From: Candidatus Methylacidiphilales bacterium
GTDB lineage: Bacteria; Verrucomicrobiota; Verrucomicrobiia; Methylacidiphilales; JAAUTS01
NCBI GenBank assembly: GCA_028713655.1
Contig: JAQTNW010000023.1
Coordinates: forward strand, 1-52,184
DNA length: 52,184 bases
Direction of reading: 5' to 3'
The translations under genes and the position numbers were made by a program. Numbering within the stretch: the first letter of the stretch is position 1; the number at the start of each line of letters is the position of its first letter. The notes below the pieces were generated by a model, which was not told the origin of the DNA, searched no databases, and was given only the letters and a program-made list of their open reading frames with translations. This document shows, piece by piece, positions 239 to 46,513 of the stretch.

Positions 239-2008
239 ATGAAGGATCTTAAACGTGTTTTTGGCTATTGCCGCCGCTATCCGATTTTTGCGATCAGCAC
301 GCTGGTTTGTGCCGTTTTCTCCACAGGTTTCGCCATTCTGTATCCGAAACTGACCGGATCGATCATCAATGACGCGCTGACGGGCAACCGGTCCGACCGC
401 CTCATCTGGATGGTTTTGGCTGTGCTGGCTTCGTTTTTCCTGCGCGACCTCTTGAATGCGTTTCGCATTATTCTGAACAACACCTTTGAACAGAACGTCA
501 TTTTCGATTTGCGCAGCGATCTCTACGCCCATCTCCAACGCCTGCCGCTCGGCTGGTTCGACAACCAGGCCACAGGCGATCTCCTCACCCGGGTGAGCGA
601 GGACGTCACCAACATGGAACGGGTCCTGATCGATGGCATCGAGCAGGGGTCGGTGGCCATCCTGCAAATCGTGGGCGTGGGTGCGTGGCTGTTTTCGATC
701 AATTCCAGACTGGCCTGGCTCGTCATGCTTCCCATGCCGTTTCTGGCTGCGGGAGCCTTGATATTCACGAGGGCCTCGCATCAACGGCATCGCGCCATCC
801 GCCGCGCCACTTCGGCCTTGAATGCCCTCCTGATGGACAACCTGCAGGGAGTGCTGCAAATCAAGTCGTTTGGCCGCGAACAAACCGAGCATGTTCACTT
901 TCGCCAAAAGGCCAATGCGGTGCGGGAAGCCTCGTTGAACTTGATGCGGACCTGGGCCTGCTATTCGCCATCCATGACTTTTCTCTCGGCCACCGGGATT
1001 GTTCTGGTGCTTTATTTCGGTGGGCTGGATGTGCTTCATGGCCGGCCCGGGTTCAGGGTCGGCGACCTGATGGCCTTTTTGTTGTATGTGCGGATGTTCC
1101 ATGAACCGATCGAAAAATTGCACCAGCTCAACCAGCTTTTCCAGGGCGGCCGGGCCGCGGCCGAACGCGTGTTTAAAATTTTGGACACAGCGGTTGAACC
1201 CGAGCCTCTTTCGCCGACTCGCCTGCCGGAGCTGCACGGCAGCGCCCGCCGGGTTGAAATTCAGAATGCCGGTTTCGAATATGAGTCCAGCCGAACTGTA
1301 CTTCATGATATCAACCTGACTGCCGAGGCCGGGCAAACCATCGCTCTGGTCGGGCCGACCGGGGCCGGCAAAACCAGCCTGGTCAGTTTGATCCCGCGCT
1401 TTTACCGGGTCAAATCAGGGTCGGTGCGGATCGACGGGGTTCCTGTGCAAGATCTGCTCCTGGAAGATTTGCGGAATCAGATCGGCGTGGTGACGCAGGA
1501 GGCTTTTCTTTTCAACACCACGGTCCGGGAGAATTTGTTGTTAGGCAAACCGGAGGCTACGGATGCCGAAATCTGGTCGTCCCTGGAAGCGGCCAATGCG
1601 GCCGGCTTTGTGCGGAATTTGCCCAAGACATTGGAAACCAATGTGGGCGAAAACGGGGTCAAACTCAGTGTTGGCGAAAAGCAGCGGCTCTCGATTGCCC
1701 GCGCGCTGTTGAAAGACCCCCCGATTTTGATTTTGGATGAAGCCACGGCCAGTGTCGATACGGCCACGGAACGGCTCATCCAGGAAGCTCTCGAACGGCT
1801 CCTGCAAAACCGCACTTCCTTTGTGATCGCGCACCGCTTGTCCACGGTGCGGCGCGCCGATTTGATTTGTGTCCTGAAAGAGGGCCGGATTATTGAACGC
1901 GGCGGTCACGAAGAATTGCTGGCTTTGGACGGGCTTTATGCGCGCTTGTGCCGGGAGCAAAGCGTGGGTGAAACCATTGAAGAAACGTTTGAACATTTGG
2001 TCCGGTAG
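239..2008 (+). CDS. ABC-type exporter half-transporter, MsbA-like (membrane domain plus ATPase)
   Basis: A 589-residue half-transporter with an N-terminal membrane domain (about residues 1-310) and a C-terminal nucleotide-binding domain. Visible ATPase motifs are Walker A GPTGAGKTS at 372-380, the Q-loop glutamine at 420, the signature LSVGEKQR at 476-483, Walker B ending in D500-E501, and the H-loop histidine at 532. All catalytic residues are present, so it should be an active homodimeric exporter in the inner membrane. MsbA-type proteins flip lipid A or other amphiphiles, but the sequence alone does not fix the substrate. It is followed after 15 bases by an MscS-like gene, suggesting an operon. 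Confidence 0.9.
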   Translation: MKDLKRVFGYCRRYPIFAISTLVCAVFSTGFAILYPKLTGSIINDALTGNRSDRLIWMVLAVLASFFLRDLLNAFRIILNNTFEQNVIFDLRSDLYAHLQRLPLGWFDNQATGDLLTRVSEDVTNMERVLIDGIEQGSVAILQIVGVGAWLFSINSRLAWLVMLPMPFLAAGALIFTRASHQRHRAIRRATSALNALLMDNLQGVLQIKSFGREQTEHVHFRQKANAVREASLNLMRTWACYSPSMTFLSATGIVLVLYFGGLDVLHGRPGFRVGDLMAFLLYVRMFHEPIEKLHQLNQLFQGGRAAAERVFKILDTAVEPEPLSPTRLPELHGSARRVEIQNAGFEYESSRTVLHDINLTAEAGQTIALVGPTGAGKTSLVSLIPRFYRVKSGSVRIDGVPVQDLLLEDLRNQIGVVTQEAFLFNTTVRENLLLGKPEATDAEIWSSLEAANAAGFVRNLPKTLETNVGENGVKLSVGEKQRLSIARALLKDPPILILDEATASVDTATERLIQEALERLLQNRTSFVIAHRLSTVRRADLICVLKEGRIIERGGHEELLALDGLYARLCREQSVGETIEETFEHLVR

Positions 2009-16732: not shown

Positions 16733-16837
16733 GTTTCAGGTTCGTAAAGCTCAGTGGCGCAACGGGGCAAGGCGAAGGCGCGGAGGCTGCGGAAGCAGCA
16801 TCCGTGACTGAGCCGGTGAAGCCATGACCGTGCTTTT
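16733..16837. other. Short gene-free stretch with decayed 'cgcgcaaaggcgc'-like repeat
   Basis: CAACGGGGCAAGGCGAAGGC and the following bases at about 16758-16785 resemble the dispersed family at 7.33 and 43.49 kb. No gene is seen here. Confidence 0.3.
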
Positions 16838-16883
16838 CAACAACCCGCGCTGAGAGCCGTGGGTGTGCAGCGTATGGTTAGCC
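16838..16883 (-). repeat. attC-like site 3 (end of cassette 3)
   Basis: Read on the minus strand it begins GGCTAAC, containing the stop codon TAA of the 105-residue gene. CGCTG and CAGCG then form a stem, the AACC/GGTT boxes pair outside it, and it ends in GTTGTTG. At 46 bases it is short for attC and the least convincing of the three. Confidence 0.4.
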
Positions 16884-17200: not shown

Positions 17201-17270
17201 GGCTAGTCGGCGGTGATCTAGCCCCGGAAGCCGCAGGCTGTAGGGGCTTGGGTCAACCGCATGGTTCGAT
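17201..17270 (-). repeat. attC-like site 2 (end of cassette 2)
   Basis: On the plus strand CGGTGA (17211-17216) pairs with TCAACCG (17253-17259) leaving one extrahelical A, AGCCCC (17220-17225) pairs with GGGGCT (17243-17248), and GCC-gca-GGC forms the tip. The outer boxes are GGCTAGT (17201-17207) and GTTCGAT (17264-17270). Confidence 0.6.
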
Positions 17271-18030: not shown

Positions 18031-18090
18031 ATCGAACGTCAACCATCAGTCGCGTCGCGTAGCGACGTTGACTGGATGGTCTGGTTAGCA
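18031..18090 (-). repeat. attC-like site 1 (end of cassette 1)
   Basis: The best-formed site. On the plus strand ACCATC (18042-18047), AGTC (18048-18051) and CGTCGC (18053-18058) pair with GATGGT (18075-18080), GACT (18070-18073) and GCGACG (18062-18067) around a GTA tip. G18074 is extrahelical and a G/TT internal loop is present. The outer boxes are ATCGAAC (18031-18037) and GTTAGCA (18084-18090). The site overlaps the last codons of the gene at 18039. Confidence 0.7.
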
Positions 18091-43487: not shown

Positions 43488-43798
43488 AACAGCACAGGTT
43501 CTCGCGCAAAGGCGCAAATTCGCGAAGAACAAGGAATTAGCGGGATCACTTATCTTTATCCCCCTGATAAGGGGGAAGACAAGGGGGTTTGTGTTTGGTG
43601 GCAGATTAAAACGCCGCTTTTCAGCAAATGCGTCCAAAATCCCGTCTGGTGAATCCGCGCCGAATCCACTCACAAAACATGAGAAGACAGTGGGATATGC
43701 CGCCAAAAAAATTCATGCGCTTATCAACGAACTAGCGCAATGACCCCCGCCAGCGTGGGCGAGCGCCAATATTGAGTGGGGGGTGGAATTACAAAAGA
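43484..43798. repeat. Gene-free region with two dispersed repeats shared with 7.3-8.2 kb
   Basis: 43484-43516 repeats 7329-7362 ('acaggttctcgcgcaaag'), and 43560-43590 repeats 8167-8200 in the opposite direction ('ccccctgataagggggaaga'). No credible gene lies in these 311 bases. Confidence 0.55.
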
Positions 43799-44953
43799 TC
43801 ATTTAAAAGAAGCGGCTGGTGGCGGTCGGTCTGCCGCGCCTGGTTTCGCCAACTCGCTGATTCCGATCCAGTTTTCCAGCCATTTCCATGTCGAATCCGC
43901 ATCCTGCATTTGTGGCAAAGTCGCTAAATTGATCTGTTTTGTGTCCACTGCGTTCCGACCACGGTAGGCATCTGCAAGCTCCTTGAACACATGTCCTTGA
44001 ACCTTGATCTTTTGGTCAAGCGTGATCAAACCGAGCGAATACTCCAGGGGATGAAACGCGTATTGCCTGTCAAGATCGTGACTTGACCACCATGTGAACC
44101 AGTTCACGCCGGACTGAATCGCGTTAACCGTGGATTCCTGGAGAAACCGTGGAATATTTTCCGGGTCGGTCCAGTCCTCGGACATTCCATATTCCTGAAT
44201 CCAAATAGGTTTGCGAGGATTGCCAGAATATGAACGGGCAAGCGCAGCCATGGCCTCCGGCAGGCGCAGGCAGCGGGGATCGAAGCAATTACCACCGGCA
44301 CGGCCCAATGCTCCGGTGAAGAATGTCCAGCAATGCAGTGGGATAATGCTTTGCGTTGTTGCAAGGCATTGAGGCGAGAAGGTTGCCCGCGTGAACCATG
44401 GATTGTGATCGACCCCATTCACATGTGTTCCTCCCGGGAGGCATTTTTCAGAGAGGGCCAGCATTTGGCTGCTCCACCGGTCGCCACAATCGAGATCGTC
44501 CGTCTGCCAGCAGCAATTTAACTCATTGCCGAGATCAAACCCCAGGAAGTTGCTATGTTGTGACATGGCTTTTGCGATGCTCGTCACATAGAACTCCTGG
44601 ATGCTCCTCTCCTCCAAGAGCTGGTAAAAGGAGCTGTCCGGTTGGAAAGGAGGTTTAAAAGCGTAACCTGAAAGCCAGCCAACGAAGAGACTCACACAGA
44701 CATCAAGTTGCCTTTCCTCCGCCAAATTCATAAGAATCTCAAGACGGTCAAGATGTGCCTTGCTTACAACTTTTGGATTGGGTTGAAAGTATGGCCATAT
44801 CAGCATAATGCGGATGTGATCGGCGCCAAGTCTGACGATGGCATCCAAGTCCTTAGCGATGGCGTCCGATTGGAAATCGTTCCAGCAGTGCCACCAAGCG
44901 CGAGTGGGTGTGTAGTTCACTCCGAAACGATATTGAGTTAATCCAAATCTCAT
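43799..44953 (-). CDS. Glycoside hydrolase of clan GH-A (cellulase/GH5-like)
   Basis: 384 residues from ATG 44953, with an AGGGAG ribosome-binding site. Opening block YRFGVNYTPTRAWWHCWNDF, then LGADHIRIMLIWPYFQPNP. The acid/base is E144 in GFDLGNELNCCW and the nucleophile E254 in KPIWIQEYGMS, the spacing expected for a retaining TIM-barrel GH-A enzyme. No signal peptide is present, so it would act on imported oligosaccharides in the cytosol or on glycosides. The exact family is not certain. Upstream lies the ExbB-like cassette gene on the same strand. Confidence 0.8.
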   Translation of the reverse strand: MRFGLTQYRFGVNYTPTRAWWHCWNDFQSDAIAKDLDAIVRLGADHIRIMLIWPYFQPNPKVVSKAHLDRLEILMNLAEERQLDVCVSLFVGWLSGYAFKPPFQPDSSFYQLLEERSIQEFYVTSIAKAMSQHSNFLGFDLGNELNCCWQTDDLDCGDRWSSQMLALSEKCLPGGTHVNGVDHNPWFTRATFSPQCLATTQSIIPLHCWTFFTGALGRAGGNCFDPRCLRLPEAMAALARSYSGNPRKPIWIQEYGMSEDWTDPENIPRFLQESTVNAIQSGVNWFTWWSSHDLDRQYAFHPLEYSLGLITLDQKIKVQGHVFKELADAYRGRNAVDTKQINLATLPQMQDADSTWKWLENWIGISELAKPGAADRPPPAASFK

Positions 44954-45013
44954 AATTTTCTCCCTGATTGTTACGAGCAGATCGTTACCAGTCAGCAACT
45001 CCGAGGACCTGGC

Positions 45014-45110
45014 ATCCGAGGCTGCTGCTTGTCCCGCCGTAGCCTTGCGAAGGCGGACGCAGCCGTAGTGCTGGTGTGTGAAGGGTTGAGGCGGACGGCC
45101 TGGTTCGGAT
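45014..45110 (-). repeat. Possible attC-like site after the ExbB-like gene
   Basis: On the plus strand the outer boxes are ATCCGA (45014-45019) and TCGGAT (45105-45110, part of GTTCGGAT at 45103-45110). GTCCCGCC (45031-45038) can pair with GGCGGAC (45091-45097), leaving an extra base. The interior also holds a common 'gccgtagccttgcgaaggcgg' hairpin, so part of the fold may come from that repeat instead. Confidence 0.35.
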
Positions 45111-45113
45111 TCT

Positions 45114-45401
45114 TCATGTATTTATTGGAGGTGCTGTTGGTGCAACTCGTGTGCATCGCCAAAATATCAGTCCGAAAACAAGGACACCTAAACCCGTGAC
45201 ACCAATAGATATGCCAACCACCGTGGAAATCATGACGGATGATATATCTGATGACAATTTGTCTGTGTGTGCAATGCCCGACTCGCCAAGTGTGTTAAAA
45301 CCACCGATCATTCCGATGACTGTTCCCAAAACGCCCAAGGCAGGCCCAGCAAGGGTCATTATACCACCAATAATCATCGTCCACCTTATGACTGGTTTCA
45401 T
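45114..45401 (-). CDS. Small ExbB/MotA-like proton-channel protein, probable single integron-like cassette
   Basis: 95 residues, two membrane helices (about 9-33 and 58-82). The first helix contains GPALGVLGTVIGMIGGF, the conserved glycine-rich motif of the TolQ/ExbB/MotA family, followed by LGESG and a second helix with STVVGISIGVTG. The cytosolic loops of full-length ExbB are missing. The ATG is 8 bases after GTTCGGAT (minus strand) and the stop 3 bases before ATCCGAAC, an exact 8-base inverse match, the same boundary rule as in the array at 17-18.6 kb. Without an ExbD-like partner its role is unclear. Confidence 0.65.
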   Translation of the reverse strand: MKPVIRWTMIIGGIMTLAGPALGVLGTVIGMIGGFNTLGESGIAHTDKLSSDISSVMISTVVGISIGVTGLGVLVFGLIFWRCTRVAPTAPPINT

Positions 45402-45409
45402 ATTTTTTA

Positions 45410-45417
45410 ATCCGAAC
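45410..45417 (-). repeat. Core-site box at the start of the ExbB-like cassette
   Basis: ATCCGAAC on the plus strand (GTTCGGAT on the minus strand) is the exact inverse of 45103-45110 and lies 8 bases before the ATG. Confidence 0.4.
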
Positions 45418-45552
45418 GCACATTAGTTTCGATTCGGTTCTTATTGCAGTAGGTTGTTTTCAACCTATTTCGGGAATTGAAGCGGACTCGTTTCAGAAGC
45501 GCCATGCACATGCCATCAGCATGCATGAATTTGGGTTGTGAACAATCAGAGT

Positions 45553-45577
45553 TTTAAGTTTAAAGCCTTTTTTGCGT
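45553..45577 (+). repeat. Repeat 'tttaagtttaaagccttttt', copy 2
   Basis: It differs from 20091-20115 at one position. It ends 7 bases before the L,D-transpeptidase stop codon and may double as a weak terminator for the opposite direction. Confidence 0.4.
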
Positions 45578-45583
45578 GCCGAG

Positions 45584-46363
45584 TCACGGCAATTTCCATT
45601 GCTTCACAAGTTGCTGATAGACTGGCTTGGGCAGCAGGACGTAGAGCGGCTTGGCGGCGGGATCGACCCATGCGATCAGCTCCCGCAATCGTTGTTCCTC
45701 CATGGCCGTACAGCCGGTTGTCGGCTTGGCGCCATTCTCGCGCCAGATATGGAAAAAAATCGCGCTGCCCGCCCCGCGTTCTGTCCCCGGCCCGGTATTG
45801 TGGCCGATGAATAATTTCAGGCGATGGGCCGGGTCGTCCATCCGCATTTGCTGCCGTTTCTCCCAGTCGTTTTGGGGCCCGCGCCCGGGGAGCCGCAGGT
45901 GTTTGTTATAATACGGGGAAGAGCTGTCTTCCACCCACAAATCCTGCTCGGTGACCTGGGTGTAGCCGAGGTTTGGATTTTTTTGAATTTCGGGATCATA
46001 ACCGTAGGCCTCTCCTATTGCAAAGACCCCGCAGGGCGCGCGGCCATCGCCCTCTTTTTTTACAAGACCGTCCAGGTCCGCGGGATGCAGTCCGCGGCCC
46101 CAGGCCAGGCCGTTCTTGCCAAGCCGGACCGGCCAGGGCTGGCCGACCGGATGCCATTCATCGTTGCTGCGCTCAAAGCGCTGGAGAACGCCATTGCTTA
46201 AGTTCCAGTCGTCTGTCAGTGTCAGAACCAGTTGCTGGCAGCCGGTGGGAATCGAGAAGGAATCGTCGCAGAGGCCCGCGGATGGAAAGGCGGCCCAGAG
46301 CAAAAGCAGACCCAGGCAAAACCGCCTCGCAATGCCAGGTTCCAGTTTCAAATAAGTTCCCAT
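45584..46363 (-). CDS. L,D-transpeptidase (YkuD-like) exported protein
   Basis: 259 residues with an N-terminal signal peptide (hydrophobic core 16-31). The YkuD signature is present: H205 in IFFHIWRENG and the catalytic C218 in TTGCTAM, 13 residues later. Earlier blocks KLFIGHNTGPG and LWVEDSSSPYYNKH are typical of the longer 'murein transpeptidase' subfamily. It would cross-link peptidoglycan or attach proteins to it in the periplasm. The OmpA-domain and TPR genes nearby also concern the envelope. Confidence 0.85.
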   Translation of the reverse strand: MGTYLKLEPGIARRFCLGLLLLWAAFPSAGLCDDSFSIPTGCQQLVLTLTDDWNLSNGVLQRFERSNDEWHPVGQPWPVRLGKNGLAWGRGLHPADLDGLVKKEGDGRAPCGVFAIGEAYGYDPEIQKNPNLGYTQVTEQDLWVEDSSSPYYNKHLRLPGRGPQNDWEKRQQMRMDDPAHRLKLFIGHNTGPGTERGAGSAIFFHIWRENGAKPTTGCTAMEEQRLRELIAWVDPAAKPLYVLLPKPVYQQLVKQWKLP

Positions 46364-46395
46364 TCAAGAAATATGGTTTTGACCATGGAGCGATA

Positions 46396-46513
46396 TGGAG
46401 TGCGGTGGCAAGCCGTAGGCGCGACACCGCTTTGTATCTCCAGCAAAGAACAACTCCGACCGATGTCGCGAGTACAAAGCGCCGTCGCCGCTATGCTCTG
46501 CCGGCACACTCCA
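46396..46513. repeat. Inverted pair of the 'tggagtgcggtggcaag' repeat (MITE-like)
   Basis: 46396-46437 (TGGAGTGCGGTGGCAAGCCG to CACCGCTTTGTAT) and the inverse copy 46472-46513 (GTACAAAGCGCCGTCGCCGC to CACACTCCA) face each other over 34 bases. A third copy stands alone at 51169-51209. The pair could fold into a 40-bp stem with mismatches. Confidence 0.55.

Follow-up and report, generated by a model that had tools for sequence, protein, structure and literature searches.

Does a short gene at 45 kb of the window (the whole 52,184-nt stretch of DNA analysed here, contig C23 of a 3.29 Mb genome in 90 contigs) represent a single integron cassette standing away from any integrase gene? Its 95-codon ORF encodes a membrane protein that matches Pfam MotA_ExbB (PF01618) with E=5.9e-9 and 36.2 bits against a cutoff of 22.9, which confirms the ExbB/MotA-like assignment of the original prediction. 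Only residues 17-68 of the protein are covered, by profile positions 54-105, and a weak resemblance to the MotA structure 6ysl was found as well (E=0.033). An 8-base inverse repeat had been predicted around the gene, and its boxes are indeed present on the minus strand, 8 bases before the ATG (GTTCGGAT, 45417-45410) and 3 bases past the stop codon. The exact inverse match extends to 9 bases, with AATCCGAAC at 45111-45103 (minus strand) pairing inversely with GTTCGGATT and the ORF lying in between. The 8-base leader TAAAAAAT shows nothing resembling a Shine-Dalgarno sequence, again as predicted, and a scan for sigma-70-type promoters gave no score above those of shuffled sequences.

Taken alone, this inverse repeat is weak evidence and could be due to chance. 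When matches within 25 bases of the ORF ends were counted for the 284 window ORFs of at least 60 aa, two ORFs reached 9 bases, namely the 95-aa ORF and another whose match sits in apparent coding sequence, while the octamer occurs 4 times versus 2.07 expected. A covariance model of attC was built from 15 sites on contigs C30, C26 and C63 and in a genome of the sister genus (G001), with the window sites excluded. Double changes were observed in 13 of its 18 pairs, a number reached by none of 500 shuffles, and the double-change cells amount to 49 versus 18.9 in the shuffles. In this genome and G001, 17 of the 24 spans between neighbouring attC matches show an inverse start/end match of 6-9 bases, and a cassette on contig C43 bears the identical GTTCGGATT...AATCCGAAC pair; therefore, the inverse repeat corresponds to ordinary cassette anatomy. 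The other 7 spans match over the fixed GTT alone or one base more, and part of the spans with a short match probably contain an attC missed by the model.

A BLAST search of window positions 44900-45700 against the genome returned two places on contig C30, both in its cassette array, one matching the attC side (45058-45108) and one the upstream side (45396-45535). This contig carries the only full integron integrase of the genome (457 aa; TIGR02249, 431.5 bits against a cutoff of 265), whose gene, intI, is transcribed divergently from the cassette array at its attI. The complete set of intI, attI and attC array is thus found on C30 and not at the 45-kb locus. The upstream-side match covers the attI region of C30, which lies between the core and the start codon of intI. 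With a leave-one-out profile built from the four other full-length copies, the window element was recovered at 45412-45552 (E=3.7e-26), its homology beginning at the core. Neither intI nor a remnant of it was detected within 3.5 kb beyond the element. It consequently shares with an attI site the homology to the genome's own attI region ending at the core, but not the adjacency to intI, and since no intI adjoins it, we call it attI-like.

On the other side of the gene, the DNA from 45110 to 44983 aligns with an attC of the C30 array as far as the cleavage G of G/TT (the slash marks the cleavage point), with 82% identity over 51 nt by BLAST (window 45058-45108). The alignment ends at TAACG/TTAGC in C30 versus TAACG/ATCTGC in the window, and past the cleavage G the DNA is different, as would be expected because insertion predicts the target's own DNA there, in this case with GAT. 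This end was taken as the downstream limit of the cassette, and the point where the attI homology starts as the upstream limit (Table 1). The unit so delimited has the anatomy of an integron cassette, with a 5' junction core G/TT, a gene, and an attC with R'' at the 3' end. The attC, predicted to span 45014-45110, is thereby corrected to 44977-45110; because it is part of the cassette, an empty site should join 44982, rather than 45103, to 45417. The R''/L'' side of this attC is good, L' is partly decayed with mispairing, and the outer R' box reads GATCTGC versus the expected GTTNGRN. Run on the window, the covariance model gave no match for the cassette attC as it stands, since the homology to the C30 attC stops at TAACG and the outer core is GAT; an Rfam scan of the window matched nothing. 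The attC pair-profile score is 4.9 as standing and 22.4 once the site is rejoined, as it would be in the excised circle, to the start of its own cassette, the latter value partly by construction because the matching box is supplied, compared with a window maximum of 47.4.

Table 1. Features of the putative cassette locus and of the other array in the window.
Feature	Position	Strand	Basis or remark
Putative integron cassette, 434 bp	44983..45416	-	From TT of the upstream core G/TT to the cleavage G of its own attC
Putative cassette attC	44977..45110	-	Alignment to C30 attC, L009 1179-1281
Short MotA/TolQ/ExbB-like membrane-protein ORF, 95 aa	45114..45401	-	ATG to TGA; PF01618
Upstream core GTTCGGATT, junction of attI-like element and cassette	45417-45409	-	Inverse match to the cassette end, like other cassettes
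R'' box ATCCGAAC	45110-45103	-	3 bases beyond the ORF stop
attI-like element without integrase	45410..45555		77% to C30:2640-2800 upstream of intI
YkuD L,D-transpeptidase-domain gene, flanking, chromosomal, outside the cassette	45584..46363	-	PF03734; homologues in 6/6 family members
384-aa gene, flanking, downstream of the cassette	43799..44953	-	Patchy in the order; cassette status not demonstrated
attC of the other window array	18031..18090	-	Covariance model R1, E=1.8e-10
Second, weaker attC of the other window array	17201..17270	-	R1, E=0.025
Outer attC of the other window array	16761..16879	-	89% over 119 nt to an attC-like stretch on contig C26

The attC model matches also on contigs C61, C43, C44, C3, C7, C6, C30 and further contigs, and attC types are common to several loci. 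The number of separate cassette loci is uncertain, as C30, C26, C43, C44 and C61 end within or close to arrays. At the other array of the window, at 16.7-18.6 kb, the attI profile search detected no attI. Two further candidates were discarded, namely window positions 490-562 (E=0.34), which read as lying inside an ABC-transporter-like coding sequence and were taken as a chance match, and a possible attC past the 384-aa gene at 43836-43850, which received no covariance-model support. The outer end of the C18 array resembles window positions 43748-43826 (80% similarity over 79 nt). Elsewhere, a 234-bp segment of the C30 array, attC included, is duplicated at 99.6% (L009 reverse complement 473-706 and 1671-1904, of bases 1-2800), and the C26 array adjoining an intI remnant contains a 342-bp segment duplicated at 99.7%. 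G001 has 65 attC-model matches at E up to 5 on many contigs, including C206, C210, C197 and C95.

The window element is not the only one of its kind. Besides the attI of C30, the genome contains five integrase-less attI-like copies, the window included, all with cassette-like genes on the core side. BLAST identity to the C30 attI region is 88% for C18, 86% for C6:36.1 kb, 83% for C63 and 77% for the window (45396-45532), and a copy at C6:100.5 kb is truncated, its core-proximal half being lost. C30, C18, C6:36 kb and C63 retain both dyads as well as the core-proximal CTAATRYRCTGTT. Among the full-length copies, that of the window has diverged most (62-69% to the others); its first dyad is degenerate or lost, and one core-proximal base is missing. 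The dyads, which are related to each other, lie at L009 2674-2715 in the attI region; TAGATTGAATTCAATCTA is one of them, the other has a second GAATTC at its centre, and both are possible binding sites. Within 3.5 kb beyond the attI-like copies no intI remnant was detected, save a similarity in C18 reaching about 50 bp past the intI start; the homology of several copies stops near that start. A transposable unit with fixed ends was also considered and rejected, as the C18 homology runs further and the copies were not seen to share an end sequence. A pattern scan of the genome contigs for the attI-like block gave no match. The array with the truncated element on C6 also holds, at about 101 kb (L013 5973-6374), a HicA/HicB-like toxin-antitoxin pair (PF07927, PF15919) in a cassette-like position, and a dispersed GGAGTGCGGCGGCA-type repeat occurs near several loci (window ~46380-46420, L009 4259-4304, and C63 near its attI-like copy).

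Relatives were compared at the same chromosomal position. Five of the six family members keep, next to YkuD, one or more further genes as ordered in the window, while the genes on the opposite side differ. In these six, neither attI-like DNA (by BLAST) nor an integron cassette was detected beside YkuD, and the 95-aa gene was found at the equivalent place in none of the relatives. Since the side opposite YkuD differs in all six, no junction could be read, and no empty site was found by synteny because these relatives are too distant. An integron integrase above the cutoff occurs in two of the 62 genomes of the order, this one (G000) and G001. A single 28-base match was the only attI-like DNA detected in the other 61 genomes; G001's own attI was detected solely with the G001 sequence as query. 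Among the GTDB genomes searched, the best homologue of the protein (48-49% over 95 aa; L086 4001-4288) comes from a Chthoniobacterales genome. There, an attC-like stem followed by GTTCGGCAGAAAAATATG lies at the gene start, the end box is GCCGAAG, one base off, and further attC matches lie along the sequence (best E=7e-5), features that place this homologue, on sequence grounds, in an apparent cassette context.

Combined, these results indicate that the locus is very probably one integron cassette at an attI-like site without integrase. The inverse repeat would then be the R'/R'' pair of one attC, whose boxes face each other across the hairpin in the excised circle; insertion by IntI at G/TT would transfer the R' half to the 5' end of the cassette, leaving both boxes flanking the gene. 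The locus would most likely descend from an integron that lost intI, with the cassette entering either before that loss or in trans via the intact C30 IntI, and the gene would be expressed from the attI side, its leader being very short. As the outer attC box is GAT instead of GTT and the attI-like element is the most diverged full-length copy, the cassette is probably of old date, with little mobility left. The simplest origin is that former integrons lost their intI, and most likely all five integrase-less copies arose in this way. Loss is supported by intermediates, namely G001 contig C111, where a second attI-like copy has cassettes on one side and an intI fragment of about 54 codons (counted by eye) on the other, and C26, where a different, diverged attI-like end accompanies the last ~29 codons of another intI (L026 1276-1590). 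Against the cassette reading stand the attC unseen by the covariance model, the GAT core, the diverged attI-like element, and the lack of an empty site and of an intI remnant. The predicted dispersal of a single cassette is nevertheless supported by the attI homology, by an attC homology that runs as far as the crossover base, by the way other cassettes are built and by the homologue in cassette context. The site is not simply a random one, however, since the cassette, with its half-decayed attC, abuts an element homologous to that beside the only full intI.

Three other explanations were weighed. That the inverse repeat surrounds an ordinary chromosomal gene by chance would agree with the ORF count given above and with an octamer that is not enriched, but the two boxes are exactly where the attI and attC homologies lie, neither a cassette nor attI-like DNA was seen in relatives at the same place, and the homologue lies in a cassette context, which together make coincidence extremely improbable. 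Cassettes are reportedly also inserted at sites that are neither attI nor attC (attG; Loot et al. 2024, as described in PMC12444791). Such an insertion by IntI at a non-attI chromosomal site, with incidental attI similarity nearby, would account for the outer core GAT; it appears improbable given that the attI-like element abuts the core exactly, in the right orientation and as at C30, with the E value reported above.

A further alternative holds that the attI-like elements are working secondary docking sites at which the C30 IntI inserts and excises cassettes in trans. The five copies have their cassette-like genes on the same side, four sites including C30 keep the core-proximal motif and both dyads, in several copies the homology ends close to the start of intI, as though the site but not the gene had been kept, and attC types are common to different loci. 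However, recent insertion is not directly evidenced at any orphan copy, the window copy lacks the first dyad and one core-proximal base, and C6:100.5 kb lacks the core-proximal half. We therefore regard trans docking as unlikely, and descent from an integron that lost intI as the preferred reading.

A cassette cluster without integrase may stem from the decay of an integron or from insertion at a non-attI site; these origins are seldom distinguished, since outside class 1 integrons attI is difficult to recognise. Here, the genome's own attI region recognises the orphan copies, which allows every cluster to be assigned: five have an attI-like arm, and none was detected at the other window array. 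What surprises is how many orphan copies one genome contains. This approach also makes it testable whether one integrase serves several attI sites. A distributed integron, in which one integrase serves several dispersed docking sites in trans and every such site has a first-position promoter of its own, is a tentative and rather unlikely idea; if true, several cassettes would occupy the expressed first position simultaneously.

Compared with the MotA/TolQ/ExbB proton-channel family (PF01618), the cassette protein shares the profile region noted above, but at just 95 aa it lacks the remainder of the domain, and the cassette lacks an ExbD/TolR-like partner. With attG insertion as citing papers describe it (Loot et al. 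2024), the locus shares a cassette outside the main array and a non-GTT outer core, while differing in the attI-like arm on the 5' side of the cassette. In Treponema, attC sites and cassettes outlast intI (PMC3607928), as they probably do here, yet in our case the genome retains an intact intI at another locus. In Xanthomonas, cassette clusters (CALINs) occupy several chromosomal loci away from a single intI locus (PMC12444791), a similar dispersal; five loci here have an attI-like copy, whereas the part of that study considered mentions none for its dispersed loci. IntegronFinder 2.0 defines a CALIN as attC sites without neighbouring integrase, with a default threshold of two attC sites, and does not detect attI outside class 1, where it is poorly described (PMC9024848). 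The 45-kb locus agrees with this definition through one degenerate attC, below the default threshold. It thus resembles a single-attC CALIN in having one cassette, one attC and no adjoining intI, and differs in that its attI-like element is still recognisable via the complete integron of its own genome.
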